This document shows, one piece after another, positions 39,053 to 55,612 of a stretch of 64,000 nucleotides of DNA. Source of the stretch: Mycolicibacter minnesotensis. Lineage in GTDB: Bacteria > Actinomycetota > Actinomycetes > Mycobacteriales > Mycobacteriaceae. Each line of letters opens with the position of its first letter. Position 1 is the stretch's first letter. The position numbers and the translations under genes were made by a program. The DNA is taken from positions 1,426,001 to 1,490,000 of the forward strand of contig NZ_AP022589.1 of the NCBI RefSeq assembly GCF_010731755.1, read 5' to 3'. A model generated the notes under the pieces. That model had not been told where the DNA came from. It worked only from the letters and a program-made list of their open reading frames with translations, and searched no databases.

Positions 39053-39084
39053 GACCAGGGCTTGAACGGGTTGACCGCGAACTG
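39053..39084. repeat. attL core of the integrated element
   Basis: 32 bp starting GACCAGGGCTTGAACGGG and ending CCGCGAACTG, identical to 54450-54481. On the minus strand it encodes QFAVNPFKPWS, the end of the DUF4185 protein. To the left, the original last codons (VS, then stop) of that gene remain stranded. Confidence 0.93.
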
Positions 39085-39307
39085 TTTCCTGCGCGTTTAG
39101 CAACGTTGACTGTCATTGATAGTTCGGATTAGCACAGGTCAGCGAGGTTTGTTGAGTTGGCGGCAAACGGGGTGCGCTGGAGCTGCTGCGGACGCACTGC
39201 GGACGCAGGGGGTCGTCTGGTCCCTTGTCGGTGCCGATCGGTATGGTGATGGCCATGTCCACCCAGCACTCGGAGTTGTTGACCGCGCGATTGTCGCGGT
39301 AACTCGT

Positions 39308-39381
39308 GCTTGGGTACGCCAACTGGCAGAGCGACCGGCCTTAAAAGCCGGCGGTTGCGGGTTCGAATCCCACCCCAAGCA
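39308..39381 (+). tRNA. tRNA with UAA anticodon (Leu codon UUA), short variable loop
   Basis: Acceptor GCTTGGG/CCCAAGC with A73, D-arm CGCC...AGCG containing GG, anticodon stem CCGGC/GCCGG with loop CTTAAAA (anticodon TAA at 39342-39344), T-arm GCGGGTTCGAATCCCAC with one C-A mismatch. The variable loop has only five bases (CGGTT), unlike normal tRNA-Leu, which has a long arm. Only CA of the CCA is encoded. It lies just inside attL. Confidence 0.75.
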
Positions 39382-39384
39382 CAC

Positions 39385-39458
39385 GCTGGGGTAGGCAAAT
39401 AGGCAAAGCCGCCGCACTCAAAATGCGGTGCATGTGGGTTCGAGTCCCACCCTCAGCA
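39385..39458 (+). tRNA. tRNA with CAA anticodon (Leu codon UUG), short variable loop
   Basis: Acceptor GCTGGGG/CCTCAGC with A73, D-arm GGC...GCC with GG in the loop, anticodon stem CCGCA/TGCGG with loop CTCAAAA (anticodon CAA), T-arm GTGGGTTCGAGTCCCAC fully paired. The variable loop is five bases (TGCAT). It starts 3 bp after the previous tRNA, so both are processed from one transcript. Element-encoded tRNAs of this kind are typical of mycobacteriophages. Confidence 0.8.
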
Positions 39459-39734
39459 CAAGCCGATGCCAGCGCGTATACGCTCCCGGACGGCCGTGAC
39501 CACATGACGGGCGATCGGGCCATCGACATGATCGAAGTGCTCCGCCAGGACCTCCAACGTGTCCAGCTCCGCGGCCGTCACCGGCGCCATCTCCACAGCT
39601 GTGACGGCGGCGATCTCCAGCTCCCCAGCGGCAAGTGCGTCGCACGCCGCCCAGTACGCGTCGTCCTCCATGACCGGCTGGTAGCGGTCGAGGATGCACC
39701 GCGTGAAGTGCTCCAGGCCGTCGTAGGTCGTCAT
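39453..39734 (-). CDS. small element protein of unknown function
   Basis: 93 residues from ATG 39734 (start MTTYDGLEHFTRCILDRYQP), acidic and probably all-helical (WAACDALAAGELEIAAVTA, ELDTLEVLAEHFDHVDG). No motif recognised. Its stop touches the end of the second tRNA on the other strand. Codon use looks like a real gene. Confidence 0.55.
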   Translation of the reverse strand: MTTYDGLEHFTRCILDRYQPVMEDDAYWAACDALAAGELEIAAVTAVEMAPVTAAELDTLEVLAEHFDHVDGPIARHVVTAVRERIRAGIGLC

Positions 39735-39784
39735 GGTCACCGACGGTAGTGCCTGCCACCGACGGGCGTCCCGGTCCAATGAAG

Positions 39785-39825
39785 TGCGGGACGCCGCACC
39801 CCGTGAAACGGGGGGACGTCCCGCA
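39785..39825. terminator. hairpin, terminator or processing signal
   Basis: Outer arms TGCGGGACG (39785-39793) and CGTCCCGCA (39817-39825) are perfect complements, with an inner CCCCGT/ACGGGG pair around GAA. It lies between the small minus-strand gene and the HTH gene. No T-run follows, so termination is uncertain. Confidence 0.5.
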
Positions 39826-40019: not shown

Positions 40020-40658
40020 ATGGATGAACACCCGGAATGCCCTACTCCTGAAAGCGGAGCCGCTGCCCCGTTCAAGACCTACAGTCTGGCTGAAGTTGCT
40101 GCGTTGGTCCTTCCGGAGATGGCTAGCGGTGAACGTTGGCTCGCCGAGCGCCTAAGGAGCGGCAAGGTCCGCGGCTACAAGATCGGCCGAGCTTGGCGGA
40201 TGACCCACGAAGACATCGAAGATTTGATTACCCGCCACAGAAACTCACCACAGCCAGCGGAGCCCGAACGCTACCCAGGCGGCTTGACGCGTCGCGGGTG
40301 GCTGTATCGCCAGAGGTACGGCGCCGCTGGCAACCCCAACATCCAAGGCCCCCGTCGCGCCGCGCCGGCTGCTCCGCCGCCGAAGGTTGAACCACTACCG
40401 AGTTTGTACACGCCGATGTGCGCCGAGCCAAAGGAGATTGTCGAGACGATGCCCCCGTTGACAGAGACCCAGCAGCAACTGCTGCAGCGCGTAGAACGAG
40501 AGGGAACGGTGGTGCTGAATGGCCGTTTCCGCAAGTCCGTTGAGGCTCTAGTTAGGCGCGGGCTCGTCGGGCATGAAGCCGCCTACGTGCTTAGCGACAG
40601 CGAGAAGTCACCGGCATATATCTACCGCTTTACTGTCCACCGCAATGAGACGGATTGA
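40020..40658 (+). CDS. excisionase/HTH_17-type DNA-binding protein
   Basis: 212 residues from ATG 40020; the frame is open from ATG 39825 but that head is low complexity. A helix-turn-helix of the excisionase type spans about residues 19-65: KTYSLAEVAALVLP, SGKVRGYKIGRAWRMTHEDIEDLI. The C-terminal half contains a second likely winged segment, LTETQQQLLQRVEREGTVVLNGRFRKSVEALVRRGLV, so it may bind two sites. It may be a directionality factor or a regulator of the neighbouring toxin-antitoxin operon. Confidence 0.75.
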   Translation: MDEHPECPTPESGAAAPFKTYSLAEVAALVLPEMASGERWLAERLRSGKVRGYKIGRAWRMTHEDIEDLITRHRNSPQPAEPERYPGGLTRRGWLYRQRYGAAGNPNIQGPRRAAPAAPPPKVEPLPSLYTPMCAEPKEIVETMPPLTETQQQLLQRVEREGTVVLNGRFRKSVEALVRRGLVGHEAAYVLSDSEKSPAYIYRFTVHRNETD

Positions 40659-40961: not shown

Positions 40962-41537
40962 ATGGCGACTTCGCTTGACGTTGCGGCGTACATCCTCCGT
41001 GTCATGGCAGATGGCGGGGAAGACGCCCCGATCACTCGCACCGTGCAGAAGCTCGTCTACTACACCCAGGCGTGGAGCCTCGCGTGGGACGGGCGGCCAG
41101 CCTTCTATGAGCCGATCGAGGCATGGAAAGACGGCCCGGTAGTCCGCCGCCTGTACTCCGCACACCACAGGCAGTGGCGCGTATCCGAGATACCTGCCGG
41201 CGACCCCGACGCCCTGACTGACGAGGAAAAATCGATCGTTGATGCTGTCATGGCCTTCTACGGTCACATGAGCTTCGATCAACTCGTCGATCAGACGCAC
41301 AAGGAACTGCCTTGGCAACGTGCGCGTGGTGACAAGCCGCCCGGTGCGCATAGCTGGGCTGAGATCACTCAAGGCTCGATGCGGTCTTTCTACACCGTGC
41401 AGAGCCTGAACGGACTGCCGACACCGGAGCGGCCGCAGTCCCGATCCAAGTACGTTGATGCGAATGAAGTGCGGGACGAGACCGCCACACAGACCAAAGT
41501 CTGGCGCGAGACGTTGGACTGGTTGGCTACCCGGTGA
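40962..41537 (+). CDS. Panacea (DUF4065, SocA-like) antitoxin
   Basis: 191 residues from ATG 40962, six bases after GGGAGG. The Panacea/DUF4065 domain fills the first 130 residues: VAAYILRVMADGG, TRTVQKLVYYTQAWSLAW, FYEPIEAWKDGPVVRRLY and SFDQLVDQTHKELPW. Panacea proteins are known antitoxins that neutralise many unrelated toxins. The next gene, overlapping by GTGA, is a Doc/Fic toxin, so this is the antitoxin of a PanA-Doc pair. The extra C-terminal 60 residues could determine toxin specificity (inference). Confidence 0.88.
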   Translation: MATSLDVAAYILRVMADGGEDAPITRTVQKLVYYTQAWSLAWDGRPAFYEPIEAWKDGPVVRRLYSAHHRQWRVSEIPAGDPDALTDEEKSIVDAVMAFYGHMSFDQLVDQTHKELPWQRARGDKPPGAHSWAEITQGSMRSFYTVQSLNGLPTPERPQSRSKYVDANEVRDETATQTKVWRETLDWLATR

Positions 41538-41914
41538 CCAGACGCCTCGACTGCGAGGCCATCATCCACATCAATGAGAGCGTGACTGGTTTCGGTCACG
41601 CTCTCATTGACCGACCGGCTCTTGAATCAGCTGTGGAGCAACCGTTCGCGACCTGGGATGGGAAAGACCTCCATCCAACCTTGGTTGAGAAAGCCGCGAT
41701 CCTGTTGCGCGGCATCGCGTTCAATCACCCCTTCCAGGACGGCAACAAGCGGACGGGATGGATGGCGTGCGTCGAGCTGCTGAGCCTCAACGGTGCGCCC
41801 CTGGATCACACTCGCATTCATCCCGTTCAGGCTGGCGAGATGGTGCTCAGCCTTGTGAAACATCAGATCGATGTGTTCCGACTCGCTGTCTGGCTGGCCG
41901 AGCACCTCGACTGA
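41534..41914 (+). CDS. Doc-type Fic-family toxin
   Basis: 126 residues, whole length of Doc. The Fic signature is HPFQDGNKRTGW at residues 65-76: H65 catalytic, D69-G-N-K72-R binding the nucleotide. The K in place of the usual glycine (GNK rather than GNG) is the Doc form, which phosphorylates EF-Tu instead of AMPylating targets. Overlaps the Panacea antitoxin gene by 4 bp. This pairing is a known Panacea combination type and probably stabilises the element or blocks competing phages. Confidence 0.9.
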   Translation: MTRRLDCEAIIHINESVTGFGHALIDRPALESAVEQPFATWDGKDLHPTLVEKAAILLRGIAFNHPFQDGNKRTGWMACVELLSLNGAPLDHTRIHPVQAGEMVLSLVKHQIDVFRLAVWLAEHLD

Positions 41915-41987: not shown

Positions 41988-42233
41988 ATGCCGGGGAACC
42001 CCCCTGGCCCCGGAGGAAGGGCGGCGAAGGTGGAGTTCAAGATCAATGAGGCTGGTATGCGGCAGCTTCAACGTGACTTGGAGAAGCGCGTGGCATCGGG
42101 AGTAGAGATCCCTAGTGGCGGATCTGAGGCTGACGCCATTCGTAGCGTGAAGGATCAGCTGAAGAAGATGGGCCTGACGCCTGACGATCAGGGAGTTCGG
42201 CAGATGGTCCGGGCTGCGCGCAAAGGAACCTAG
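41988..42233 (+). CDS. small charged element protein
   Basis: 81 residues from ATG 41988, which lies 7 nt after TACGTT (41975-41980), a leaderless arrangement. GTG 42030 with GGAGGAAGG upstream is an alternative giving 67 residues (VEFKINEAGMRQLQ). The body is helical and charged (DLEKRVASGVE, DAIRSVKDQLKKMGLTPDD, MVRAARKGT), like small phage proteins. Function not recognised. Confidence 0.6.
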   Translation: MPGNPPGPGGRAAKVEFKINEAGMRQLQRDLEKRVASGVEIPSGGSEADAIRSVKDQLKKMGLTPDDQGVRQMVRAARKGT

Positions 42234-42319: not shown

Positions 42320-42520
42320 CTACAGCAAGACCAGGTGTCCAGCGGCCCTACACTCATCCCCGCAGACCTCGCCCAACTGGGCCGCCTCATACTCATGCGC
42401 AGCCGACTCATCGAAACCGATCAGATTGCCCCGGGCATCGTTGACAGCGATCGCATCCGGAACCTGCGAACACACGGCCACGAAATCCGGCTCCCAATCA
42501 GCCGTACGCCGCCGCCTCAC
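42320..42520 (-). CDS. small element protein coupled to terminase small subunit
   Basis: 66 residues from GTG 42520, which overlaps the stop of the terminase small-subunit gene (GTGA). Acidic, with DWEPDFVAVCSQVPDAIAV, GFDESAAHEYEAAQL and two further cysteines (EVCGDECRAAGH). Translational coupling and amino-acid composition support a real gene. Family not recognised; in phages this place would hold the large terminase gene, which is absent. Confidence 0.6.
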   Translation of the reverse strand: MRRRRTADWEPDFVAVCSQVPDAIAVNDARGNLIGFDESAAHEYEAAQLGEVCGDECRAAGHLVLL

Positions 42521-42891
42521 GGATTCCCCACCGCATAAATCCCACGCATCCCACGACGCTGCGGCCGACCAGACCGGCGCACCGGCTCATCATCGTCCTC
42601 GTCGGACTCCTCGCCCGAAGGCACACGCAACGCCACCAACAACCGCGCCAAAGCAAGCCGCTGCTGCCGAACCTCCCCCAAGCACGGATGCGCACGGCCC
42701 CCATACGCCTCAGTCATCACCCCATCGCGGTCGATACGCTCCTGCAACTGCGCGATCAAGTCCGCCGTCCGAGCAGCATCCTCCAACAACGCCAACTCAT
42801 GCTCATCCAGCTCAAAATCCGCAGTCACCGACGACCACAAGCGCTTACCCCGCGCCCGCAAACCAGCCGGCGCACGATGAACCTCAGCCAC
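42517..42891 (-). CDS. phage terminase small subunit (TerS)
   Basis: 124 residues. The sequence APAGLRARGKRLWSSVTADF, DEHELALLEDAARTADLIAQL and HPCLGEVRQQRLALARLLVALRVP is the pattern of actinobacterial terminase small subunits (P27-like). The C-terminus is acidic then basic (RPQRRGMRGIY). TerS recognises the packaging site on DNA and hands it to the large subunit. No large subunit gene is present, a hallmark of satellites that redirect a helper phage's packaging. Confidence 0.82.
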   Translation of the reverse strand: MAEVHRAPAGLRARGKRLWSSVTADFELDEHELALLEDAARTADLIAQLQERIDRDGVMTEAYGGRAHPCLGEVRQQRLALARLLVALRVPSGEESDEDDDEPVRRSGRPQRRGMRGIYAVGNP

Positions 42892-43147: not shown

Positions 43148-43552
43148 TTATCGTTGGTACCAGCGTTCTGCCGCGGTGATGGCGTGGTTGGGCCGGTTGG
43201 TCTCTCGGCAGCGGTCCATGACCACGGTCTTGCCGGGGTCGAGGGTGAGGAGCGTGGCACCGATCTCTTCGTACTGGGCCACGGCTGTGGGTGAGAGGTA
43301 GCTGTCGATGATGAAGACGTTGATCGGCAGCATTGTGGCGAGCTTGAGGGCGCCTTGGATGGCTGTGCGTCTGACGGTCAGCGTGAGTTCGTGGGTGTGC
43401 TGACCGTGGGAGTGGTTGTCGGCGGGTTGTGCGGTGAGGGCGTTGGCGAGGGTGTCGTAGTCGATGGTGATGTCTCGTCCGGGTTGGGCGTGTTCTCGGA
43501 CCCAGGCGCTTTTGCCGGCTGCCGGTGGCCCGGTGATGACGTAGACGGTCAT
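43148..43552 (-). CDS. P-loop AAA/kinase-like element protein
   Basis: 134 residues from ATG 43552. Walker A VITGPPAAGKSAW is at about residues 5-17. ITIDYDTLANAL and VFIIDSYLSPTAV follow, resembling zeta-toxin or polynucleotide-kinase-like small P-loop proteins of phages, and VVMDRCRETNRPNH is near the end. Such genes often lie near phage terminase modules. Substrate unknown. The frame continues upstream but without family-like sequence. Confidence 0.72.
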   Translation of the reverse strand: MTVYVITGPPAAGKSAWVREHAQPGRDITIDYDTLANALTAQPADNHSHGQHTHELTLTVRRTAIQGALKLATMLPINVFIIDSYLSPTAVAQYEEIGATLLTLDPGKTVVMDRCRETNRPNHAITAAERWYQR

Positions 43553-43676: not shown

Positions 43677-44330
43677 CTAGATGTAGGCGCGGGTCGGGCC
43701 GCTGCTGGGCTTGGTGGGTGCTTCGGGCGGCGTGGCAGCGAGCTTCTCCAGCTGTCGGGTGTCGCCCATCCCGGAGGGGTAAATCTCCTGTGCGACGTCG
43801 GGCGGAAGGCTGAGGCTTCCGACACTGAATACGACCGCGGTGGCAGTGTTGATGTTGCGGCCGGTGGGTATGGCCTGCAGCTCGTTGTAGGTGTCGGTTT
43901 GGCCGGTGCTGGTGGCATAGGTAGCGACGATGTCGTTGGCGCCGAGGGTCTGGGCGCGAGCGGCAATGGCGCTGGCCATGCTGGTGTCACCCATGTCGAT
44001 GGCGCGGGTGAGCGCCGAGGCCAGTTGGCCGGGATCTGTGATTTGGGTGGCGCGGTCGGTTGCGTCGCGGTAGGCGATGACGGTGGAGGGGTTGGCGGCG
44101 GGGCCGATGCCGAAGAGTTTGCGGCTGAGTTGACGTTGGGCGGTGTCGTTGCCGGCGATGAATACGTCGCGTAGTTCGACGGCTTCCTGGTTGGCGGCGG
44201 CGATGGCTTTGGCTACCTCGTGGACTTGGCCGGCGGTGGAGTACCTGGTGTTCTCGCAGATGGTGTTGATGTCGTTCTGAAGGGCTTTGCGTAGTTCTGC
44301 CATTTGGGTTATGGCTTCGTTGAGTTGCAT
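43677..44330 (-). CDS. element protein of unknown function, possibly structural
   Basis: 217 residues. The N-terminal 70 residues are helical (AITQMAELRKALQNDI, VHEVAKAIAAANQEAVEL), the middle holds QLASALTRAIDMGDTSMASAIAARAQTLGANDI, and the tail is Pro/Thr-rich. No signal peptide or motif. It reads like phage virion or head-associated proteins, but I cannot assign one. It is in the same minus-strand run as the HTH gene before it and the P-loop gene after it. Confidence 0.6.
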   Translation of the reverse strand: MQLNEAITQMAELRKALQNDINTICENTRYSTAGQVHEVAKAIAAANQEAVELRDVFIAGNDTAQRQLSRKLFGIGPAANPSTVIAYRDATDRATQITDPGQLASALTRAIDMGDTSMASAIAARAQTLGANDIVATYATSTGQTDTYNELQAIPTGRNINTATAVVFSVGSLSLPPDVAQEIYPSGMGDTRQLEKLAATPPEAPTKPSSGPTRAYI

Positions 44331-44343
44331 GTGCAGTCTCCGT

Positions 44344-44754
44344 TCAGGCGGTCAGTTTGTGGCTGTTGAGTTGTGCTGTTTGGATGAGCCAGCGGTTTCC
44401 GTGGCGGGTGGCTTGGAGTTGTCCGGCGGTGCATCGTTTACGGATGGCGCGGGTGGTGATGCCGAGCTGGGCCGCGGCTTGTTGAGTTGTGATCCACTGG
44501 GTTAAGTCTGCCGATTCGTCTTGTGCCTCTGCCGGTTTGGTTCCGGAAGCGGAACCGTGGCTGAGGGCGACGATATGGAGCGCCGCCAATGCTTCGTAGG
44601 CTTCGGGGTCGGTCATGCGTAGCCCGATGCGGCGGTCGGCTGTGAGTCCGGCTTGGGATTCCAGCCAGTACGCGATGCGCGGCGGCACGGAGACTGTGCC
44701 GTCGGGGTTGATGTGGCGGGCGATGCGCTCAGCCCAGTTGTCGGCGGGATTCAT
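44344..44754 (-). CDS. helix-turn-helix element protein
   Basis: 136 residues. A C-terminal excisionase-like helix-turn-helix (QWITTQQAAAQLGITTRAIRKRC, then HGNRWLIQTAQLNS) follows an N-terminal region with IAYWLESQAGLT and ALAALHIVALSHG. It shares this plan with the 47020-47409 gene, suggesting paralogues within the element. Divergent from the secreted DUF732 gene across 64 bp. Confidence 0.68.
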   Translation of the reverse strand: MNPADNWAERIARHINPDGTVSVPPRIAYWLESQAGLTADRRIGLRMTDPEAYEALAALHIVALSHGSASGTKPAEAQDESADLTQWITTQQAAAQLGITTRAIRKRCTAGQLQATRHGNRWLIQTAQLNSHKLTA

Positions 44755-44818: not shown

Positions 44819-45142
44819 GTGGCAAGGATTGGTGTGTTGAAGCGCGTTACGTGGGCAGCGGGTCTCGGCGTGGCGTCGATGGGGTTGTTGCTGGGACCGT
44901 CTGGGGTGGCTCAGGCGGATGACCAGGCTTTTTTGGACCAAATTCCGCCGCGCAACTACATCTCCATGTACACGACCGATGCGGGTCGGCTGGCGAACGG
45001 CTACCAGATCTGCACGATGATCAAGACTGGTACGCCAACGCATGTGGTCGCCGAGTCTTACATGAAACTCGGTGATGGCTGGGCGTGGGTGAATGCTGCG
45101 CAACGTGAACTGTGCCCCGACACCCTTGTCCATTCCGGCTAA
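44819..45142 (+). CDS. secreted DUF732 protein
   Basis: 107 residues from GTG 44819. A signal peptide (residues 1-33, VTWAAGLGVASMGLLLGPSGVAQA) is followed by a DUF732 domain with FLDQIPPRNY, GYQICTMIKTG and a terminal AAQRELCPD, two conserved cysteines. DUF732 proteins are small exported mycobacterial proteins. Being alone on the plus strand between minus-strand phage genes, it looks like a lysogenic-conversion (moron) gene. Its stop overlaps the stop of the tail gene. Confidence 0.82.
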   Translation: MARIGVLKRVTWAAGLGVASMGLLLGPSGVAQADDQAFLDQIPPRNYISMYTTDAGRLANGYQICTMIKTGTPTHVVAESYMKLGDGWAWVNAAQRELCPDTLVHSG

Positions 45143-46929
45143 AACAAGTCGTTGGAGCCGAACAGTGTGCCGATTGCGGACCACATAGTTTGTAGTGTGC
45201 GGACTGCTTGGCCCATGGGGTTTTCCTGCTCCGACCCGGTACCGATCGTCACCTCGAAAGTCTTCGGGGTTGATTCGTCGTAATGCATTCTTATGGCAGT
45301 GAATTGGTCGGTGTAGAGCAGGCCGTCGATCTCGAACAGTGCCCGCGTCCCAAGATCAAAGTCGTAGTAGACCTGGTAGAGGCGGCGGTTCCAGATCGAG
45401 ACTTTGAATGACTGGTAGGGGCGGGTTTTCCAATGCCCCTGCCGCAGTGTGAGTGCGGAGCTGATGGTGTAGGCGGTACCGCCACCCTCCTGAGTGAAAT
45501 ATTCCAAATAGCCCATGTCCCCGGCTGCGATCTCCCGCATCGGGTCCGTGTTCCGCATGAACGCCAACAGCATGTTGTCGAACTGCCCCTGGTAGGACTC
45601 TTCGATGCCGGACCCGATCGGGGCTGGGCCGGTTGCTCCGCCCGTACCAAACGCGTAGACGCCTGCTTGCGTTACCTGAATGAAGCTGAGTCCGTATTTG
45701 ATTCCGAATGTTTGGAGCTGGTTTACCCAACCAGGACTCTTGCCGCCAGCCAGGATCGACTTCGCCTTGCTCTTGAAGATCGCCCGCTCGGACGACTTGA
45801 TCGGCGACTGATCCAACGAGTCTCGGAACACGATCGACGGTTTGATCGGAGCGATACCAAGGAAATCCCGGACATACGGGGGGACGTTCTTCCCGGTGCG
45901 GGGGTCGATGGCGTCGGCGTCACGGAACTCGTACAGAATCTCCGAGATCAGATCGTCTGCTGTCGCCGCAACCAGGTTCACGGCCCCGTCGATCGCGGTG
46001 CCCGTCAACCCCACAACCCCAGACTGGTCCTCGACGGCGAGGACGATGCAGTTCCGGGATGGCCGCGCTGCCTCTTGGCCGATCAGGGCAGCGAGTTCGG
46101 GGTGTGGTGAGTCTTCGTCTTCGGTGAGCCAGGTGTAGGCGCGGACGTTGCAGCCCGCGTCCTTGAGCATGCCTTCGGTGGTGTCGTGGGCTGAGGACCA
46201 GCGTGACGCCAACACCGAGAATCGGCTGATGTCGGTGAGTGGATTCACGAATTGCATTTGGATTGGCCACCCCAACGGGGACCAAAGTCGGCCATCAGTC
46301 AGTGGTTTCAGCCATGCACCGGGGTTGACGAAATTGTCGATTACACCCAAGGGTGGGTAGAAGATCCGGGCGAGGTTGACGAACCCGGTCACCGCCACAA
46401 TCGTGCGCGTGTTCCCCGGTAGCACCCATGCCTTCAGTGGCTGAAATTCCGGTGCACACCACGGCGTCGCCGCGAAATACAGGTGCTTCCAGTGCTCCCG
46501 GTTCTCCGCCACATCGAAATGCAGCTCATGCAACCCTTTTTCAGTCCGAACGTTACGAACCGCGGTGACTTTGCCGCCCCACCGCCACCGCCAGTTCCGA
46601 TTGTTCGGATACGGATCAACCGTGATGTTCAGGTCATCGTTCGACCGAACATCAGTGCGCAGGAACTTGTTGATCCAATCCGAACCCCGCAACACAATCG
46701 ACCCGGTACCCGTGTCATGCAACCTGGTCTCAATGTCGACCGATTTTTCACCGCCGATGCGGCCGATGAACTTCATGTCCTTGTCCCACAGCCGGATCAA
46801 AGGACGAGCACGCGACTCCGCATCCTTCGCATTACGTTTCGCGTCCGCCCACATATAGGCCGAGATCGGATTCTGGACAGGATCAGGTACCCCACCTTCG
46901 CTGATTTTGGGGAAGGTAATGGTGCTCAT
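45139..46929 (-). CDS. Gp37-like minor tail protein
   Basis: 596 residues from ATG 46929. It resembles the siphovirus Gp37-like minor tail proteins of actinobacteriophages: LIRLWDKDMKFIGRIGGEKS and EKGLHELHFDVAENREHWKHLYF near the start, then SRWSSAHDTTEGMLKDAGCNVRAYTW, and GHWKTRPYQSFKVSIWNRRLYQVYYDFDLG near the end. It is normally followed by other tail and baseplate genes; here it is the only structural tail gene. In a satellite it could modify the helper's host range (inference). Confidence 0.8.
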   Translation of the reverse strand: MSTITFPKISEGGVPDPVQNPISAYMWADAKRNAKDAESRARPLIRLWDKDMKFIGRIGGEKSVDIETRLHDTGTGSIVLRGSDWINKFLRTDVRSNDDLNITVDPYPNNRNWRWRWGGKVTAVRNVRTEKGLHELHFDVAENREHWKHLYFAATPWCAPEFQPLKAWVLPGNTRTIVAVTGFVNLARIFYPPLGVIDNFVNPGAWLKPLTDGRLWSPLGWPIQMQFVNPLTDISRFSVLASRWSSAHDTTEGMLKDAGCNVRAYTWLTEDEDSPHPELAALIGQEAARPSRNCIVLAVEDQSGVVGLTGTAIDGAVNLVAATADDLISEILYEFRDADAIDPRTGKNVPPYVRDFLGIAPIKPSIVFRDSLDQSPIKSSERAIFKSKAKSILAGGKSPGWVNQLQTFGIKYGLSFIQVTQAGVYAFGTGGATGPAPIGSGIEESYQGQFDNMLLAFMRNTDPMREIAAGDMGYLEYFTQEGGGTAYTISSALTLRQGHWKTRPYQSFKVSIWNRRLYQVYYDFDLGTRALFEIDGLLYTDQFTAIRMHYDESTPKTFEVTIGTGSEQENPMGQAVRTLQTMWSAIGTLFGSNDLF

Positions 46930-47409: not shown

Positions 47410-47425
47410 CCGCGTCGCCTCGGCC

Positions 47426-47737: not shown

Positions 47738-48043
47738 TCACTCGAATACCTGGCCAGCGATCACGCCGCGGGGCCTTCGGGTAGGCGGGTGGGCTTCGAC
47801 CCACGCGGCGCAACTGGCTAAGGCTGGACAGGTACGACAGAGCGACAAGGCGACCGTGTGCCGGTACGCGACCTCCTCGTGCGGCTCGCCCTTGTCGGCG
47901 GGATCGAACGCGGCGAACAGTGTCCGGCATTTGGCGCCGGGCAGGCGTGGGGTGCCGGCCAACGCAGCGGTGAGGAGTTGCAGGGTGCCATCGGCGTCAA
48001 GGGTGCGATTCGGAATCCGATCCTCTGAGGCCGCGGCAGTCAC
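47738..48043 (-). CDS. phage-type WhiB-family transcription regulator
   Basis: 101 residues from GTG 48043 (GTGA overlap with the previous gene). Cysteines C39, C69, C72 and C78 form the C...CxxC...C cluster site, with LCRTCPALASCAAWVEA. The G[VI]WGG turn of cellular WhiB is replaced by GVIAGQ, as in phage-borne WhiB proteins. WhiB of mycobacteriophage TM4 is known to inhibit host WhiB2 and to affect superinfection; a similar role here is inference. Confidence 0.85.
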   Translation of the reverse strand: MTAAASEDRIPNRTLDADGTLQLLTAALAGTPRLPGAKCRTLFAAFDPADKGEPHEEVAYRHTVALSLCRTCPALASCAAWVEAHPPTRRPRGVIAGQVFE

Positions 48044-48255
48044 GAGGCCTCCCGTGGGGTGTGTCGGGGTTCGCTGAAGTCGACCGTTGTGGGCGCTAGG
48101 TCCGCAGTGGCGAGCCTGCCGACGCAGGGCACTCGGGAGACCCGCCCATCGGCCTTGGTGCACGGTGCGCCGGGGTCTGCTTCGCAGTGAGGGCAGGGGA
48201 CGTCCCACGCTCCCGTGTCCCGATAGGCGGCTAGGACGACATGGCCGGCGCTCAC
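48040..48255 (-). CDS. zinc-finger element protein
   Basis: 71 residues. The segment VPCPHCEADPGAPCTKADGR with VPCVGR supplies CxxC...C...C, a pattern frequent in small mycobacteriophage proteins of unknown role. Overlaps WhiB by 4 bp and the DUF2637 gene by 4 bp. Confidence 0.7.
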   Translation of the reverse strand: MSAGHVVLAAYRDTGAWDVPCPHCEADPGAPCTKADGRVSRVPCVGRLATADLAPTTVDFSEPRHTPREAS

Positions 48256-48911
48256 GCCACTGCCCCGCTCTGGTGGTGGTCGAGGATTCTGGTGACGGTG
48301 GAATATCCGACGCCGAGACGGCGGGCGATCATGCTGGGTGCCGCGCCGGCCGAGTGTTCAGCGAGCACCTGCGCGACTCGTTCGGGGGAGATCCGCACGA
48401 CGCCTCGGTCCACGATGCGATGTGCGACGGCCAGGTGCGCATCAGCGCACGCCGGAGGCTCAGCAGAGTGCACGGCGGCGTGCGTGGCGTTGTGCACCTG
48501 CTGTGCGGGGCGGCTGGCGGTGAGGGCAAAGAGCGCGAGGGTGCTGACGCTCATGCCCAAGTCGACGACAGCGGGCGCGATCCACGCCAAGCTTGGCGCG
48601 ATACCGGCCCACGTCATCACGAGGTCGCGAAGCGCTGCGAAGTTGAGTACGAATGCGCCGGTGGCGAGCAGTGCCGCGGCGGCCAGTGCGCAACGATGTG
48701 CAGCGCCGCCGATTCGGGCTTCAACGAGGAGGTGCACGCCGTGGATGGCGCACAACTGGACCAGGACTATGACCGTGGCGACGGCTGAGGCGAGGACGGG
48801 TACGCGTGCGTCGCCGAGCAGTGCGTGCACGATGACCCCGCTGATCGACACCGCCGCCGAGGCCAAGAGCCAGCTCCAAAAGAACCGCTTCCCATTCCGG
48901 GTGGCGTTCAT
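48252..48911 (-). CDS. DUF2637 membrane protein with C-terminal HTH
   Basis: 219 residues. Four membrane segments lie in the first 125 residues (FFWSWLLASAAVSISGVIVHAL, VATVIVLVQLCAIHG, CALAAAALLATGAFVLNF, AWIAPAVVDLGMSVSTLAL). The cytoplasmic tail ends in a helix-turn-helix (APSMIARRLGVGYSTVTRIL). DUF2637 genes are common in actinobacterial integrative elements next to replication genes; role unknown. Overlaps RepA by 4 bp. Confidence 0.82.
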   Translation of the reverse strand: MNATRNGKRFFWSWLLASAAVSISGVIVHALLGDARVPVLASAVATVIVLVQLCAIHGVHLLVEARIGGAAHRCALAAAALLATGAFVLNFAALRDLVMTWAGIAPSLAWIAPAVVDLGMSVSTLALFALTASRPAQQVHNATHAAVHSAEPPACADAHLAVAHRIVDRGVVRISPERVAQVLAEHSAGAAPSMIARRLGVGYSTVTRILDHHQSGAVA

Positions 48912-50488
48912 GAAGTGGCCTCTGCGGGAGCGATGGCATAGACGGTGGACTGGCCGATGCGGCGCACGAAGCTCAGTTCGGGGCTGCGCTGGATGTAGGT
49001 GGATACGTTCGGTGCCCCGTAGCCGTTGGCACGTCCGGCAGCGTGCACAGCAAACGATGTGACCTCGGTTTCGCCGGCGGCGCGGAGGTCGTCGATGTAC
49101 TGGGCGAGCCAGTCCGGGCAGGAAAGCTTAGGGCGGTCGGAATCTGGCGACCTGCGGGAATCCAAGTCAGTGACAGTTGCGGTTCGGTTGGCATCCCTCG
49201 CGCGGGGGGAATCTGCCAACCTGCCATCCTTGCCATCCAGACCCGGGATGGCATCAGAAACACCCTGATCAGAGGCTGGATGGCAGGATGGCAAGCCTCT
49301 CATTGTCTGGGCGCCTTCCTGGTGGCCATCCTGTTCGACGAACGGAAGCAACTGCCAGTAGTACGGGCCGCCGTTTTCCTTGCGGAACGGCTTGCCGATG
49401 CGGCATCGCTTGGCCAGTTCCTCGCGGGCTCGACGGGTCTGATCGGCGCTGTATCCGGCTTCGGCCATCTGAGCTACCGCGGCGTCCTTGGTGACTTCCA
49501 GCAGTGCGCCGTTGGGTCCGGTCAGGATCTGCACCAGCATGGCGGCCTTGTCGGTGACCGGCTTGTCCGTGGGGCTCGCCGCTGGCCCGCCGGCCGCTGC
49601 GTCGCGGAGGGCGTCGGAGACGGTGCGGTCGGTTTCCTCACCGAGGACGAAGCGGCTGACGGCCGCAGTCTTTCCGCTATCGGTGGTTACCTCCACCGGT
49701 TCCAACGTGTAGGTGTACGACAGTCCCTCGGGGCCAATGCTGCTCTTGGCGTGAGTCATCAGCCGAGTTCCGTCTTCGGCGTTGTCGTCCTTGGCGAATC
49801 CGAAAATCGAACGGGCCACTTCACCGAAAGCACTGGACCCATTGAGGGCGGCCACCACGTCTCCGGTGAAGGACTTCTTCAGGTGCGCGATACCGATCAC
49901 TACACCGTCGATGGCTTCAGCCAGCTTGACCCACGGCTCCAAGCGAGCACGTACCTCATTGGAGCGGTTCACGTCGGTGGCCGATCCCACGACGGACATC
50001 AGCGGGTCGAGAACCACCACCTTGATGCCGTGCGCCTTGAACTCGTCGGCCAGCGCCTGCATGTTCAGGTGGCGCAGGATCGACACGGTATCGGTGCCGT
50101 CCTCGGATTCGAATTGGACTTCTGGAATGACCACCTTGTCCATATCGGCGCCTGCGGCCCGTAGTCCGGGCTTCATCATGTACACCTCGGACTCTTCGGT
50201 GCCGATCCATGCGACGCTGACCGGGGTGCCGTACCACGCTCCGGGAAGGGTTCCGTTCGTAGCTTCCGCGCCGAACCATCTGGCTGTCGTGGACTTTCCA
50301 GCGGCGGGACGGCCGCCGAAGATCACCAGGGTTCCGACCGCGATTCCTGGGTATCCCGGTTTCGGTTCCCACGCCAATGTCGGTACGTCGTCGATGACGG
50401 TGGACATAGGGCGCAGGTTGATTCGGATTCGGTGGTTGTTGTTCTGATCCGGCACTCGGTCGGTCAAGCTGTCCTCCTGGGTATGCAT
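48908..50488 (-). CDS. RepA-like AAA+ ATPase, probable element replication protein
   Basis: 526 residues from ATG 50488 (start MHTQEDSLTDR). The RecA-like AAA_25/RepA domain has Walker A GGRPAAGKSTTAR at 58-70, WIGTEESEVYMMKPGLRAAGA and Walker B KVVVLDPLMSVVG with IGIAHLKKS. A helical winged region follows (ADQTRRAREELAKRC), and a final DNA-binding-like domain, SFAVHAAGRANGYGAPNVSTYI. Hexameric helicases of this type drive plasmid and phage-element replication. The long frame upstream overlaps another gene and is not used. Confidence 0.82.
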   Translation of the reverse strand: MHTQEDSLTDRVPDQNNNHRIRINLRPMSTVIDDVPTLAWEPKPGYPGIAVGTLVIFGGRPAAGKSTTARWFGAEATNGTLPGAWYGTPVSVAWIGTEESEVYMMKPGLRAAGADMDKVVIPEVQFESEDGTDTVSILRHLNMQALADEFKAHGIKVVVLDPLMSVVGSATDVNRSNEVRARLEPWVKLAEAIDGVVIGIAHLKKSFTGDVVAALNGSSAFGEVARSIFGFAKDDNAEDGTRLMTHAKSSIGPEGLSYTYTLEPVEVTTDSGKTAAVSRFVLGEETDRTVSDALRDAAAGGPAASPTDKPVTDKAAMLVQILTGPNGALLEVTKDAAVAQMAEAGYSADQTRRAREELAKRCRIGKPFRKENGGPYYWQLLPFVEQDGHQEGAQTMRGLPSCHPASDQGVSDAIPGLDGKDGRLADSPRARDANRTATVTDLDSRRSPDSDRPKLSCPDWLAQYIDDLRAAGETEVTSFAVHAAGRANGYGAPNVSTYIQRSPELSFVRRIGQSTVYAIAPAEATS

Positions 50489-50760
50489 GCGCCGCCGCGG
50501 CCGCGCCGGATGCAGCGGGCAACGGCGGGCCAGTCCTCGATTCGGGCAATGGCTTTCGAGGCGTCGGCAGCGGCCTCTTGACGGGTGTCCTGCTCGAGCG
50601 CCCACCAGACGGCCGCCCACAGCAAGGCACTCCATTTGGCGGGGTTGGCGTCGTCGAGGTGCATCCATGCGGGGGTTCCGGGCACAAGGCCCGGTTCCCC
50701 CAGCAGCGGCGCCACCAGGTCGTAGACGGTCAGGTACGTGACCTGGCGACTGCCGGTCAT
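50464..50760 (-). CDS. DUF2742 family protein
   Basis: 98 residues from ATG 50760. GSRQVTYLTVYDLVAPLL, PGTPAWMHLDDANPAKWSALL and KAIARIEDWPAVARCI fit DUF2742, a family seen in the M. tuberculosis phiRv1/phiRv2 prophage-like elements. It precedes the RepA gene, overlapping by 25 bp. Role unknown; the shared family links this element to phiRv-type elements. Confidence 0.75.
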   Translation of the reverse strand: MTGSRQVTYLTVYDLVAPLLGEPGLVPGTPAWMHLDDANPAKWSALLWAAVWWALEQDTRQEAAADASKAIARIEDWPAVARCIRRGRGGACIPRRTA

Positions 50761-50951
50761 CCGGCTTCCCGGGCCGCACAGGTCTTTCCGATGCCGTCGC
50801 GGACGCTGGCAGGGTCGGTCAGCCAACGGCCGCACCCGCGGCAGCGCATCGCCAACCGCCATTCCGGAAGCTGGTCGGGGATACCGGCCCGCAGTGGGCC
50901 GGCTCCCTTCGCCGTGTCGGCCTTGGCAACGTGGCTGGTCAATGCGACCAC
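50757..50951 (-). CDS. small zinc-ribbon protein (DUF6011-like)
   Basis: 64 residues from GTG 50951. MRCRGCGRWLTDPASVRDGIGKTCAAR has the CxxC...GxGxxC pattern of the DUF6011 type. Overlaps both neighbours slightly, fitting a polycistronic run. Confidence 0.65.
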   Translation of the reverse strand: MVALTSHVAKADTAKGAGPLRAGIPDQLPEWRLAMRCRGCGRWLTDPASVRDGIGKTCAAREAG

Positions 50952-52292: not shown

Positions 52293-52493
52293 CTAGGCCG
52301 CATCCCCGCCGCCGCGTTTGGTGACTTGCTCCTGCTCGGCGATCCAGTTCTCAAGCTCGGATCGCCGGTAGACGACCTTTCTTCCCAGGGAGAACGACGG
52401 CGGACCCTGGTTTGTGCTGCGCCAGTACCGCAGTGTGTTCACGTTGATGCCAGTCGCCTCGGCGACCGCAGCGGTGCTCATGTATTCGGCCAT
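52293..52493 (-). CDS. AlpA/Xis-like excisionase-family regulator
   Basis: 66 residues from ATG 52493 (GAGG five bases upstream). A single MerR/Xis-type winged helix-turn-helix: MSTAAVAEATGINVNTLRYW, then GRKVVYRRSELENWI. It is the first gene of the long minus-strand operon, divergent from the repressor. This is the position of alpA in PICI satellites and of xis/cro in temperate phages. Confidence 0.8.
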   Translation of the reverse strand: MAEYMSTAAVAEATGINVNTLRYWRSTNQGPPSFSLGRKVVYRRSELENWIAEQEQVTKRGGGDAA

Positions 52494-52538: not shown

Positions 52539-52617
52539 TGGTCGCCAATCACGACCATAATGGACATGGGCAGCCAACGCAACCACCATGTGGAAAACTG
52601 GTCGCCATGGACGACCA
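52539..52617. promoter_or_regulatory. two operators for the XRE repressor
   Basis: TGGTCG-N7-CGACCA occurs twice with identical arms, at 52539-52557 and 52599-52617, 60 bp apart. The second covers the repressor's own start codon (ATG 52607), the first lies near the divergent AlpA-like promoter. This is a classic lysogeny-switch layout with autoregulation. Confidence 0.8.
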
Positions 52618-53230
52618 TGCGACGTGGAGCCTCTGGACGGGTGCGGGGATGCAGAAGGCGCGCGAGGCTTCCGGCTTGAGCCTGCACAAGCTGGCTGCCC
52701 GATGCGCGGAACTTGAGGTGCCGATCCACCGGGTTGCGCTGAGCAAGATCGAGGCCGGGGAGCGGACGCCAACTATCGACGAGATAACTGTGATCGCGGT
52801 CGCACTCAAAACATCGCCAGCCATGCTGATTTTCGGAGCCGACCTGATAGACGGACCTGTCGAACTACTACCCTCGCTCCGAACTGCGGCAGACCATGCC
52901 CTGCAATGGTTTTCGGGAGAATCACCGCTGACTCCCGACGTGCACAGCGAATATCGACAGGCCAACTACCCGATCTACCTGGCGCAGCGGTTGGAGGACG
53001 TGAAAGAGTCGCTCAGGTACTCCATTCGGAGCATGAAGGACGAACTGGGCCGCAATGATCAACACGCGCAGACATTCCGTCGCATGATGATCGAATGTCA
53101 GGAGTCGCTCTCGATGCTCCAATCCGACGCCCGAGATAGCGGCCTGATTCTGAACGACATTGACGACGGAAACGGCTCAAAACGGCGATTTGCCCATCGT
53201 GACGACCCAAATGATGACCCAGACGCGTAA
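52607..53230 (+). CDS. XRE-family repressor of the element
   Basis: 207 residues from ATG 52607. The N-terminal XRE helix-turn-helix is at about residues 14-70 (MQKAREASGLSLHKLAARC, RVALSKIEAGERTPTIDEI). The C-terminal 110 residues are charged and helical (AQRLEDVKESLRYSIRSMKDE) and lack a LexA-type Ser/Lys protease, so release would not be by RecA self-cleavage. This fits satellite Stl-type repressors that respond to a helper-phage protein. The integrase start lies inside its end. Confidence 0.85.
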   Translation: MDDHATWSLWTGAGMQKAREASGLSLHKLAARCAELEVPIHRVALSKIEAGERTPTIDEITVIAVALKTSPAMLIFGADLIDGPVELLPSLRTAADHALQWFSGESPLTPDVHSEYRQANYPIYLAQRLEDVKESLRYSIRSMKDELGRNDQHAQTFRRMMIECQESLSMLQSDARDSGLILNDIDDGNGSKRRFAHRDDPNDDPDA

Positions 53231-54437
53231 CCGCCGTTCTGGTGTCGAGGACCGCTGGCACCGCGCCGGCGACGGTGAGCCATGCGCGGAGAAGTCTCAC
53301 GGCAAGCTCGGAACGTTGGTTCAGAGCAAGACTCATGGTGTCGGGAAACGTTGGCGGGCGCGGTATGTCGACGACAACAGCAAGGAACACGCGAAGAGCT
53401 TCACCCGTAAGACGGACGCGCAGGCGTGGCTTGATGAGATCACTGCGGCGTTCGCCACCGGGTCCTACATCGACCCGCAGCGCGGCAAGATCACCTTCGC
53501 CTCGTTCTACAAGGCGTGGTCAGCGCGCCAGGTCTGGGTGTCCGGGACGCAGCACGCGATGGATCTCGCCGCCAACAGCGTGACCTTCAGCAACGTCGCC
53601 TTCAACGATCTGCGGATGTCGCACGTCGAGGAGTGGGTGAAGCGGATGCAGGACCGCGGCCTGGAGGCAACGACGATCCGCACCCGGTTCGCCAACGTGC
53701 GCAGTGTCATTCGTGCCGCAGTTCAGGACAAAGCAGCGCCCCGCGACGTGACCGTGACGGTGAAGCTGCCGAGAGTCCGCAAGAGTGAGTCGGCGATGAG
53801 CATCCCGACCGCCCAGGAGGTTGGGGCGGCCATCCGGGCGACAGCCGATATCGAGCCTGAGTATGGGGCGTTCATCGCCGTGTGTGGGTTCGCTGGCCTG
53901 CGGCGCGGTGAAGCGTCAGCCCTGAAGGTCTCCGACGTCGATTTCATCCGCAAGGAGATCCATGTGCGCCGGCAGGTGCAGTGGACCGACGACGGTCGAA
54001 TGGAGGTCCGCGGGCCGAAGTACGGATCTGAGCGCACCATCTTCGCGCCGGAGGGACTGGTGAAGATCCTCGCCGAGCATGTCCGCCTCTACCGGGGTGG
54101 CGATGATCCAGACCGCTGGTTGTTTCCCAGTTCGCGCGACAAGACGCACCCGGCGCATGCTGCCACGGTTGGCCGTTGGTGGCGGATCGTTCGCCAGAAG
54201 GTCGGCATCGAGTACCGGTTGCATGATCTGCGGCACTTCTACGCGTCCGGGTTGATCGCTGCTGGTTGCGATGTGGTGACCGTGCAGCGGGCGCTCGGAC
54301 ATAGCTTGGCGTCGGTCACCTTGGACACCTACGGGCACTTGTGGCCGAACGCTAACGACCGGACCAGGAAGGCCGCAGCGGGCCTTGTTGAGCAGGCGCT
54401 GGGAGCTACTGCGGACGCTCTGCGGACGGATGCTTGA
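53211..54437 (+). CDS. tyrosine recombinase integrase
   Basis: 408 residues from ATG 53211 (53214 is equally possible). The N-terminal AP2-like arm-binding part (GTLVQSKTHGVGKRWRARYVD) is followed by a core-binding domain with TFASFYKAWSARQVW. The catalytic set is R231 (GLRRGE), K270 (PKYGSERT), H338 and R341 (HDLRH), H364 (LGHS) and Y374 (DTYGH), all present. It ends 13 bp from the attR repeat, as usual. Likely target is the 3' end of the DUF4185 gene. Confidence 0.96.
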   Translation: MMTQTRNRRSGVEDRWHRAGDGEPCAEKSHGKLGTLVQSKTHGVGKRWRARYVDDNSKEHAKSFTRKTDAQAWLDEITAAFATGSYIDPQRGKITFASFYKAWSARQVWVSGTQHAMDLAANSVTFSNVAFNDLRMSHVEEWVKRMQDRGLEATTIRTRFANVRSVIRAAVQDKAAPRDVTVTVKLPRVRKSESAMSIPTAQEVGAAIRATADIEPEYGAFIAVCGFAGLRRGEASALKVSDVDFIRKEIHVRRQVQWTDDGRMEVRGPKYGSERTIFAPEGLVKILAEHVRLYRGGDDPDRWLFPSSRDKTHPAHAATVGRWWRIVRQKVGIEYRLHDLRHFYASGLIAAGCDVVTVQRALGHSLASVTLDTYGHLWPNANDRTRKAAAGLVEQALGATADALRTDA

Positions 54438-54439
54438 AA

Positions 54440-55612
54440 TTAGCCTGTTGACCAGGGCTTGAACGGGTTGACCGCGAACTGGATCACCCGATAGGGCGCG
54501 CGGTCCCGTAGCTGGGTGTTCCATTGACTGACGAACACCCGCAGCTCGTCGAGGGTTGATCCCGGCGAGATGTAGCCGCCGTAGGGCTGGGCCAGCCGGT
54601 TGTCGAAGGGCGGCGGCAGGGTCTCGACGGGCATGGGCGGATCCGGCCACTCGGCGTGCTGCACCACCGTGGTCACTGGCGCGGTCCCCAGCCCGGTCGG
54701 TTCATAGGCCACCCGGACCTCCATGTTGCCGGTGGTGCCGTTGAAGTACGACAGCACCGGCTTGCCGTCGATCTGGCGCAGGCTGAGCTCACCGATCTGG
54801 TCGTTCCACAACGGCGTCGGCTTGTGCCCCCAGCCATCGTCGGCCGACCAGCCCTGCCAGGCCGATCGGTCGGTGAACGCATCCGGGGTGACCCGATAAA
54901 GCGTCACCGCGGAACTGCGATTGAAGTTGTTGGCGACGATGTATACCCAGCCGGCGTCGGAGTCCGGTGCCGGAATCGGGTCGTAGTAGCCGCTGATCTG
55001 GGACTGACCGTGATCCTGATAGGAGGCCGGCCGCGCCGATCCCGGCACCGTCTGCCAACCCGGTTGCGCCGGGTCGGCTTTCACCAACCGTGAGCTCTGG
55101 GGCACCAGCATCTTGGCGGTGGTCACCATCAGATAGTTGGTCCGGTTGATCGAGACGATGCCGGCCGGCAATTGGGTGGCACCCACCGGGGCCGGGTCGG
55201 CCAGCAGCGGCTTGTCCACACCGAGCACCCCGGTGTAGCGCACCCCGGCGGCGTCGTCGACAGAGTCGGGATTCAGGCGCAGCGCAATCGGGGAATACCA
55301 ACCGCCGTAGCCCACGCCTTGACCGGCGAAGCTGTCACCGCAGATCTGCAGGATCGCGCTGGGAAACTCCATGAACTCGCACAGATCGGTGGCGCCGATA
55401 CCGTAATCGCCGGTGGGTGTTCCGGTTCCGGCACTGGGCCCGATCCGCACCACCTGACCCTCGGCCAGCGGCCACAGCAGTGGACGCGGGATGGGCGCGG
55501 GCGGCTCGGCATGCGCGGCAGCCGGCAGCACCAACAGCAGTGCCGCCAACGCGGCTCCCGCCGAGCGTGCAATCAGACCGAGAAATCGTGGGAGATTTCG
55601 CGCTGAGTGCAC
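54440..55612 (-). CDS. secreted DUF4185 protein (Rv3707c-like), 3' end remade by the element
   Basis: 390 residues from GTG 55612. A signal peptide (about 11-36, ending AHA-EP) precedes a five-bladed beta-propeller-like DUF4185 domain (CEFMEFPSAILQICGDSF, GWVYIVANNF, SYFNGTTGNMEVRVAYEPTG, YGGYISPGSTLDELRVFVSQWN). The last residues QFAVNPFKPWS lie in attR; the final TG and stop come from the element, whereas the original end, VS and stop, is at attL 15.4 kb away. The protein is therefore nearly unchanged. Function unknown. Confidence 0.9.
   Translation of the reverse strand: MHSARNLPRFLGLIARSAGAALAALLLVLPAAAHAEPPAPIPRPLLWPLAEGQVVRIGPSAGTGTPTGDYGIGATDLCEFMEFPSAILQICGDSFAGQGVGYGGWYSPIALRLNPDSVDDAAGVRYTGVLGVDKPLLADPAPVGATQLPAGIVSINRTNYLMVTTAKMLVPQSSRLVKADPAQPGWQTVPGSARPASYQDHGQSQISGYYDPIPAPDSDAGWVYIVANNFNRSSAVTLYRVTPDAFTDRSAWQGWSADDGWGHKPTPLWNDQIGELSLRQIDGKPVLSYFNGTTGNMEVRVAYEPTGLGTAPVTTVVQHAEWPDPPMPVETLPPPFDNRLAQPYGGYISPGSTLDELRVFVSQWNTQLRDRAPYRVIQFAVNPFKPWSTG
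54450..54481. repeat. attR core of the integrated element
   Basis: 32 bp identical to 39053-39084, within the 3' coding end of the DUF4185 gene. The integrase gene ends 13 bp to the left. Confidence 0.93.

Follow-up and report, generated by a model that had tools for sequence, protein, structure and literature searches.

The DNA analysed here (the window) is a stretch of 64,000 nucleotides from Mycolicibacter minnesotensis (NZ_AP022589.1, positions 1,426,001 to 1,490,000; G000:C1:1426001-1490000 in our numbering, in a genome totalling 4,224,047 bases), and the subject of this report is a 15.4 kb element at 39053..54481 within it. We show that this element is site-specifically integrated, that it carries its own integration, regulation, replication and terminase small subunit (TerS) genes, and that it encodes one complete phage baseplate hub and no other recognised virion gene. 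The extent given for it in a preliminary description of the same DNA runs exactly from the first base of one copy of a perfect 32-bp direct repeat to the last base of the other. The left copy (attL core, 39053..39084) recurs without mismatch at 54450..54481 (attR core), inside the 3' end of a host gene on the minus strand (54440-55612), which stays open because the element supplies new last codons. The encoded C-terminus reads FKPWSTG with the element in the window and FKPWSVG in genome G016, where this host gene, its core identical at 32 of 32 positions, forms an uninterrupted site. The 20 kb read around the G016 site hold no match to the window's integrase; genes resembling the window's left flank (36505-37284) recur near that site, with other genes between, and the window's left neighbour (38346-39050) was not found in the G016 region read. 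Near each end of the element lies a pair of CTGCGGAC motifs, 11 bp apart (39186/39197, spanning 39186..39204, and 54409/54420, spanning 54409..54427), which we infer to be putative arm-type integrase sites. In genome G017 the window's attB is occupied by a different element with Int, XRE and AlpA genes (L143), and in G001 (L144) an arm-site-like sequence lies beside the core, without a match to the window's integrase.

At its right end, the element holds an XRE-type repressor (52649..53230; PF01381 E 2e-8) and a tyrosine integrase (53211..54437; PF00589 E 1e-17), both on the plus strand. Divergent from these, a run of minus-strand genes leads from an AlpA-like gene through four small open reading frames (ORFs), a DUF2742 gene, a RepA-like AAA_25 ATPase, a DUF2637-like gene, a zinc-finger gene and a WhiB-like gene to p14, p13, p12 and the hub, and from there to p09, p08, a P-loop protein and TerS, interrupted between hub and p09 by a single convergent DUF732 gene. 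The left end is made up of two tRNA-like genes, an excisionase-like gene and a SocA-Panacea/Fic pair. The ATPase (48908..50488; PF13481 E 3e-16, phrog_10729 E 3e-78), the predicted replication protein (Rep), has its closest relatives in loci L034 (79%) and L035 (75%) and none in the viral contigs scanned with it. TerS (42517..42891, minus strand) matches phrog_1496 (E 1.9e-21), its Pfam Terminase_4 match being below that family's cut-off; relatives with 49% identity occur in elements L042 and L046, and a search of eight genomes or records returned only the protein itself plus one 31% match. The preliminary description had named an integrase and a repressor in one direction, a divergent AlpA-like gene, a RepA-like helicase and a TerS without large terminase subunit (TerL), and the family matches bear out each of these assignments. 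It had also reported no portal, capsid or lysis gene; Pfam and PHROG scans of the element indeed give no match to portal, capsid, TerL or lysis families (the SocA, Fic, p12 and AlpA genes and one 53-aa ORF lay outside the PHROG scans), but a complete baseplate hub had been overlooked. The repressor, with HTH_3/HTH_31 matches only, has no peptidase domain for self-cleavage, as had been stated; this is compatible with release by a helper phage and is not evidence for it.

The hub gene (45139..46929, minus strand; 596 aa, full length) is the largest of the element. Its product is a full-length member of the siphophage baseplate hub (minor tail protein) family PF14594/phrog_110, with matches at E 3e-36 and E 4e-178, the latter over positions 28-582 of 678. 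Residues 31-589 match the baseplate hub gp25 of PDB 9d93 (E 5e-39; chain positions 24-597 of 600). A relative of the window hub is present in 2374 records of the phage collection, the best at 59% identity and none at 60% or above, and the five hubs found on plasmids are likewise all below 60%. In a database of 5.8 billion proteins, 495 proteins match at E 1e-100 among 7,997 candidates scored; among the 120 matches listed, 20 are 79-95% identical to the window hub and the rest at most 64%. As described in passages of two structural reports (PMC13252515, PMC13033339), the hub is a homotrimer in a core of tail tube, distal tail protein and hub that is shielded by accessory proteins, and the hub region gates the release of the tape measure, which contacts the hub extensively. 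We set aside a role of the hub as receptor-binding or host-range factor, since these published structures place it in the shielded core and the Douge paper suggests the central fibre as receptor binder.

How widespread is this hub? A match at E 1e-40 or better occurs in 15 of 297 genomes of the genus, and a match at E 1e-190 or better in 9 of 396, every one at least 82% identical. Eight of these nine genomes carry the hub in a small integrase-bearing element (the window element, L078, L079, L080, L081, L082, L154 and L156) and one in a full prophage (L155) with hub, tape measure protein (TMP), distal tail protein (DTP), major tail protein (MTP), tail chaperones and capsid. A further prophage with this hub lineage, L110, comes from IMG/VR and looks complete; its hub is identical to a protein named Mycolicibacter heraklionensis in the protein database (P0005). 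The L110 hub is 88% identical to that of the window in both halves and the L155 hub 84%. The hub of L110 (10001-12760) carries a LAGLIDADG-bearing, intein-like insert after residue ~294, which is absent from the hubs of the eight satellites and of L155.

In all eight small elements the hub stands without its normal neighbours, and its ORF is full length and free of stops. Of the 25 ORFs in a reference phage head and tail region (L091), the hub alone is matched by the window element and by L078-L082, L154 and L156. By the same comparison, 36 loci with a related full-length hub (L083-L087, L089, L090 and L092-L120) match 2-25 of the ORFs; the sole locus with two matches, L090, is a 3.6-kb contig, and the remaining 35 match at least four. 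L088 in genome G022, which holds hub fragments, matches three; there (8883-12198) DUF732 genes alternate with four convergent C-terminal hub fragments of 26-132 aa, as if the array had been left by repeated events at the hub/DUF732 junction. The stretches read of nine relatives (L034, L035, L078-L082, L154 and L156) each contain an integrase and a partial gene set, and none of them contains a full head or tail module.

One hub lineage is found on three different backbones (ORFs of the loci were called with a simple codon-score gene finder). The first has TerS only and comprises the window element (phrog_1496) and L078, with an 82-aa TerS (phrog_4479 1.5e-35). A packaging backbone with HNH, a TerS-like protein and TerL is present in L080, L082 and L154; TerL matches phrog_9 at 5e-57 in L080 and 5e-60 in L082, phrog_1459 at 1.5e-5 accounts for a further L080 assignment, and the rest were assigned by BLAST. 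The capsid backbone is that of L079, L081 and L156, with a major head protein recognised by phrog_10 (L079, L081) or BLAST (L156), and with a protein in the scaffold position in L081 and L156; 'scaffold' in the capsid type is assigned by position and similarity, the only PHROG scaffold match being in L035 (6e-5). For the relatives, the portal hidden Markov model (HMM) was built on one partial sequence, and the absence of a portal rests on PHROG scans of many ORFs. The integrase is of the tyrosine type in L078, L079, L080, L081, L154 and L156 and of the serine type in L082. L078 has a primase-like gene (phrog_28894 5e-49) with a 68% relative in L154, L079 and L156 have helicase/primase-like genes, and L080, L081 and L082 encode DUF3631 (E ~1e-56 or better), which we take to act in replication. 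Direct repeats delimit L079 (9,059 bp between 22-bp repeats, tRNA-Arg), L081 (9,176 bp, 26-bp repeats, tRNA-Pro), L154 (13,597 bp, 47-bp repeats, tRNA-Gly) and L156 (9,182 bp, 27-bp repeats); for L078, L080 and L082 there is no second att copy in the sequence read. The Rep relatives L034 (8,967 bp) and L035 (8,214 bp) lie at a tRNA-Gly site and have a capsid and no hub, and L046 has a capsid flanked by Rep and by a TerS of the same family as the window's, approximately where the hub stands in the window. Two further arrangements were seen among these loci: L034, L035 and L154 are three different satellites at one tRNA-Gly site beside a gene that is presumably dcd-like, and L156 (1-15620, G376) contains two tandem satellites, both with a capsid and, in the part read, a hub in one only.

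The hub protein is under strong purifying constraint. Across all 36 pairs of nine genes (eight satellites and L155), dN/dS is 0.063-0.159 at dS 0.60-1.85. Other genes give 0.215-0.260 (Rep), 0.092-0.140 (TerL), 0.17-0.53 (capsid), 0.30-0.49 (DUF2637), 0.30-0.52 (p09) and 0.55-1.57 (p08), so that TerL is as constrained as the hub. The window hub is 88% (L078), 87% (L079), 85, 84, 83, 83 and 82% (L082) identical to the other satellite hubs, and the satellite hubs are 81-92% identical to those of the two prophages, L110 and L155. In the tree, satellite and both prophage hubs interleave in one long-stemmed clade (support 1.000) in which several inner nodes are weak; the window hub groups with P0001 and then with L079 (0.954). 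L082 has the satellite hub most distant from that of the window (82%) yet the p08 (62-66%) and p09 (65%) nearest to the window's, and neighbouring genes therefore differ in history. The p09 and p08 genes are found near the hub in four elements and in two different orders. In blastn comparisons, the window element shares nothing with the whole L110 record except the hub ORF and ~40 bp, and the same holds for the 20 kb of L155 that were compared.

What might a satellite do with a single tail protein? We consider it rather probable that the window element is a mycobacterial phage satellite that depends on a helper and uses its own baseplate hub to build chimeric tails with it. A temperate siphophage of the L110/L155 type would relieve repression, upon which the island would excise and replicate with its AAA_25 protein; its TerS would divert the terminase of the helper, and its hub would replace the helper hub in the baseplate core. 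To such a tail the satellite would contribute the hub, and the helper would contribute TMP, tail tube, distal tail protein and fibres. By analogy with the Vibrio satellite discussed below, entry into the baseplate of the helper is the most likely fate of the mycobacterial hub. The genome of the window contains, at ~3.908 Mb, a remnant of the L110/L155 family in which a hub C-terminus (78%) is followed by two minor-tail genes (54-75%); this family, or a close one, has therefore entered the host. A second tail region, from a partial prophage, lies at G000:C1 ~3182-3194 kb (L038/L039) beside transposase-like ORFs; its hub is distant (26%). More broadly, the hub may be a tail-capture module that moves between satellite backbones and sits next to a head-side module (TerS, HNH-TerS-TerL or capsid). 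Three unrelated architectures would then have taken up one hub lineage for chimeric tails, with the gene flowing between satellites and one prophage family whose hubs now lie inside the satellite radiation. We regard this wider proposal as an even call; if it holds, satellite tail reprogramming has arisen independently of the Vibrio elements and without a tape measure of its own.

Several observations weigh against these proposals. The satellites were first found by hub similarity, so the presence of the hub in all of them is an ascertainment effect. The L081 capsid, used as a query against 396 genomes, matched at 47 places in 41 of them, and the hub is present in 3 of the 40 examined (L046, L079, L081, two places in L156 and 35 in L162-L196; seven of the 47 fell outside the sample and several loci end at contig ends). 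A search with the L082 TerL gave eight genomes, with the hub in three (L080, L082, L154) and absent in L157-L161; L157 has an HNH-TerS-TerL block that is 66-80% alike and no hub. Among the three elements with the closest Rep (window, L034, L035), one has the hub. Present in some of the capsid and TerL loci, the hub is therefore an optional module and not a core satellite gene, and it is not required for being a satellite. MTP, DTP and tail-chaperone HMMs have no match in the TerL or capsid loci inventoried, but this picture is not entirely clean: the one TMP match, a weak one, is to a 963-aa protein of L165 (E 9e-13; Pfam NlpC/P60 just below cut-off), L186 has LysA (2e-79) ~7 kb from the capsid, and weak LysB matches (E 7e-5 to 2e-4) occur in L173, L175 and L187. 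Separately, a local family of phage proteins (F33) adjoins the capsid in L189, L192, L193, L195 and L196. All of these loci, from L165 to the F33 group, are without hub. Furthermore, the dN/dS values of the hub are approximate because dS is near saturation, no intact helper of the L110/L155 type was found in the window's genome, and neither TMP nor tail assembly chaperone (TAC) accompanies the hub. The structures cited (PMC13252515, PMC13033339, in part) place the hub in a shielded core and not at the receptor, and offer no reason why it alone should be replaced.

The main rival to chimeric tails also takes the element for a satellite, with a hub that serves interference or defence: surplus hub would compete with that of the helper and poison or slow helper tail assembly, and would not be part of satellite particles. 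Satellites and prophages do encode tail-assembly blockers, Tab and Tai, and the hub is optional as accessory genes are; in the sections of the sources consulted (PMC10884400, PMC11364771), however, these blockers are not described as hub homologues, a comparison that goes by description only. The whole-length dN/dS of 0.06-0.16 and the identity to prophage hubs fit a working structural protein better, and the hub shares its strand and gene run with the replication and TerS genes, not with the toxin-antitoxin-like cargo. We consider interference rather unlikely. It is less probable still, and in our view improbable, that the hub is a passenger or recombination handle, captured phage DNA kept for exchange with resident prophages. 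The interleaving of satellite and prophage hubs and the end of the homology block near the ends of the hub ORF would suit this, and the LAGLIDADG insert in the L110 hub makes a homing-type exchange at this gene plausible. Against it stand the strong purifying selection on the protein, the stop-free, full-length ORF in all eight satellites and the recurrence of p09 and p08 near the hub in four elements.

Could the element instead be a decayed prophage with a leftover tail gene? The hub is of phage origin and the same genome holds phage remnants (L040), but the att sites and ORFs of the element are intact and the hub lacks its normal neighbours in all eight satellites. Reduced gene sets without TMP, MTP and DTP recur in independent elements at tRNA-Gly, tRNA-Arg, tRNA-Pro and a protein gene, and the nine relatives without a full head or tail module argue against decay as well. 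With one of the 25 reference ORFs matched, the hub, the element has no head or tail module beyond a single gene, and we rejected both an intact and a decayed prophage, the latter being very improbable. The preliminary description had reasoned that full modules in relatives at this same locus would point to decay; for L143 in G017, the 20 kb read are free of structural genes, although this is one element and its far end was not found. The same L143, at the same attB, could be taken to favour a non-phage integrative element, mobilizable or conjugative, with captured phage genes, and integrase/XRE/AlpA/Rep cores are common to many integrative elements. TerS and hub in the window, capsid, TerL and HNH in its relatives and the lack of any relaxase or conjugation family in general scans of the window element, in which none was sought by name, make this the most remote of the explanations. 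The preferred reading remains that of a satellite whose hub would be built into helper tails.

The closest known parallel is found in Vibrio cholerae. As described in the part of PMC12987554 on which we draw, the phage-inducible chromosomal island-like element (PLE) PLE11 encodes TMP, TAC and a hub, and its particles contain the TMP and hub of the satellite, not those of the phage; not all PLEs encode a hub. That account, from 2026, presents PLE as the first family of satellites known to make chimeric tails, treats the advantage gained by modulating tail assembly as an open question, and reports predicted tmp genes in putative satellites outside Vibrionaceae. Like PLE11, the mycobacterial elements encode an alternative hub, assigned here by hub-family matches and not by homology to the PLE hub, and tails mixing satellite and phage parts are predicted for them from genes alone. 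PLE11 differs in encoding TMP and TAC, in exploiting a lytic contractile-tailed phage and in that incorporation has been demonstrated; its hub is 41% identical to that of the phage, compared with 81-92% between satellite and prophage hubs here (PMC12987554, same part). The mycobacterial set has the hub only, of siphophage type, on three backbones; HMMs of mycobacteriophage-type TMP and TAC found no match in it, the TMP of PLE itself not being among the queries.

The preliminary description compared the element with the phage-inducible chromosomal islands (PICIs) of firmicutes and enterobacteria, and this comparison is well supported by its layout, its att sites and the nine relatives without modules. 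As in PICIs of cocci and enterobacteria (PMC6092414, in part), the element is integrated between att repeats, int and the repressor are oriented in one direction with xis/AlpA and replication genes divergent, TerS is present (in some PICIs) without TerL, and the size is similar. Unlike these PICIs, whose virions are made of phage proteins, it carries a virion structural gene, the complete hub, and its phage dependence is predicted from gene content. The statement that such islands are hardly described in mycobacteria does not hold, as PMC10654092, in its section on candidates, gives PICI candidates across Mycobacterium, defined by integrase and capsid and including phiRv1/phiRv2. The elements studied here share with them integrase, replication genes, att sites and sometimes terminase, scaffold and tRNAs; the capsid-type L034, L035, L079, L081 and L156 fit that definition, and the window element and L078, in which no capsid was seen, fall outside it. 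That section names no tail gene. Capsid-forming PICIs (PMC10690885, in part) resemble our set in the TerL/TerS/HNH genes of L080, L082 and L154 and the capsid of L079, L081 and L156; they take their tails from the helper, unlike these elements, which carry a tail gene and in which no portal or connectors were seen. The window element itself was considered as a capsid-forming PICI and rejected, no capsid, portal, connectors, TerL or HNH having been found in it. MiniFlayer (same source and part) is likewise an actinobacterial satellite with its own tail component, in its case a tail fibre with a proposed role in attachment to the helper virion, and it also has capsid and packaging genes. In the open-licence PMC literature (bioRxiv, subscription journals and supplements lying outside it), baseplate hub and phage satellite occur together in PMC12987554 only, and we found no hub-carrying satellite besides PLE. 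Mycobacterial PICI candidates of the capsid type are thus known, and hub-carrying mycobacterial satellites appear to be new within the literature searched. A second, unrelated satellite set with the hub only narrows the question of tail reprogramming to one protein, and our analysis names a candidate helper family (L110/L155). A capsid-based definition would miss mycobacterial satellites such as the window element.

The remaining genes of the minus-strand run are small. The AlpA-like/HTH_17 gene (52293..52493; PF12728 E 1e-10) encodes a regulator or excisionase, its PF05930 (AlpA) match (E 0.002) being below cut-off. Two of the four early-region ORFs (50939-51172, 51172-51528, 51600-51899 and 51896-52129) have 68-74% relatives in L078. 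They are followed by the DUF2742 gene (50464..50862; PF10888 E 1.5e-22) and, beyond Rep, by the DUF2637-like gene (48252..48911; phrog_2342 E 4e-72; PF10935 E 2e-4, just below cut-off), the phage zinc-finger gene (48040..48255; PF24623 E 1e-7) and the gene for the WhiB-like cysteine protein (47738..48043; weak PF02467 match, E 0.02; relatives in L035, L052 and L082). Upstream of the hub lie p14 (47426..47695; 48% relative in L035), the HTH_17 gene p13 (47020..47481, its start uncertain and probably near 47409; relatives in L042 and L080) and p12 (46926..47057), which overlaps the hub start by 4 nt and has an L042 relative with 52% identity over 27 aa. Convergent with the hub is the gene for the DUF732 secreted-type protein (44834..45142, plus strand; PF05305), an arrangement also present in L078 and in the prophages L110 and L155. 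Beyond it, p09 (44344..44754; HTH_17, PF12728) and p08 (43677..44330), a helical protein (AlphaFold pLDDT 81), both on the minus strand, have homologues in L078, L082 and L154, those of p08 again near the hub. In the 5.8-billion-protein database, the matches listed for p08 comprise five proteins, itself included, and searches of PHROGs, PADLOC and Foldseek returned no match within the cut-offs applied, with no fold match at E 0.001. The P-loop (AAA_33) protein (43148..43552, minus strand; PF13671 E 6e-6) matches PHROGs named terminase small subunit (phrog_4581 E 7e-33), head maturation protease (phrog_9644 E 4e-12), ATPase and polynucleotide kinase; all of these matches cover the P-loop region, and the names therefore do not settle its role. 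The head maturation protease match is better explained by the kinase/ATPase matches.

At the left end, an ORF without family match (42030..42233, plus strand) follows a SocA/Panacea-domain antitoxin-like gene (40962..41537; PF13274 E 1e-17) and a Fic/DOC-family gene (41534..41914; PF02661 E 5e-15), both on the plus strand and overlapping by 4 nt, which likely form a toxin-antitoxin pair carried as cargo. An excisionase-like HTH protein (40020..40658, plus strand; phrog_1840 E 1e-18) and, on the minus strand, an ORF with a weak phrog_35571 match (39453..39740; E 7e-4) lie between this pair and two plus-strand tRNA-like genes with the anticodons taa (39308..39382; 53.6 bits) and caa (39385..39459; 64 bits). 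Both have Leu anticodons, yet their length of 75 nt and their short variable loop set them apart from ordinary tRNA-Leu; a comparable pair was not detected by ARAGORN in L034, L035, L078-L082, L154 or L156. Just outside the element, at 37680-38773, two 300-nt repeats that are 78% alike lie in neighbouring secreted-protein genes.

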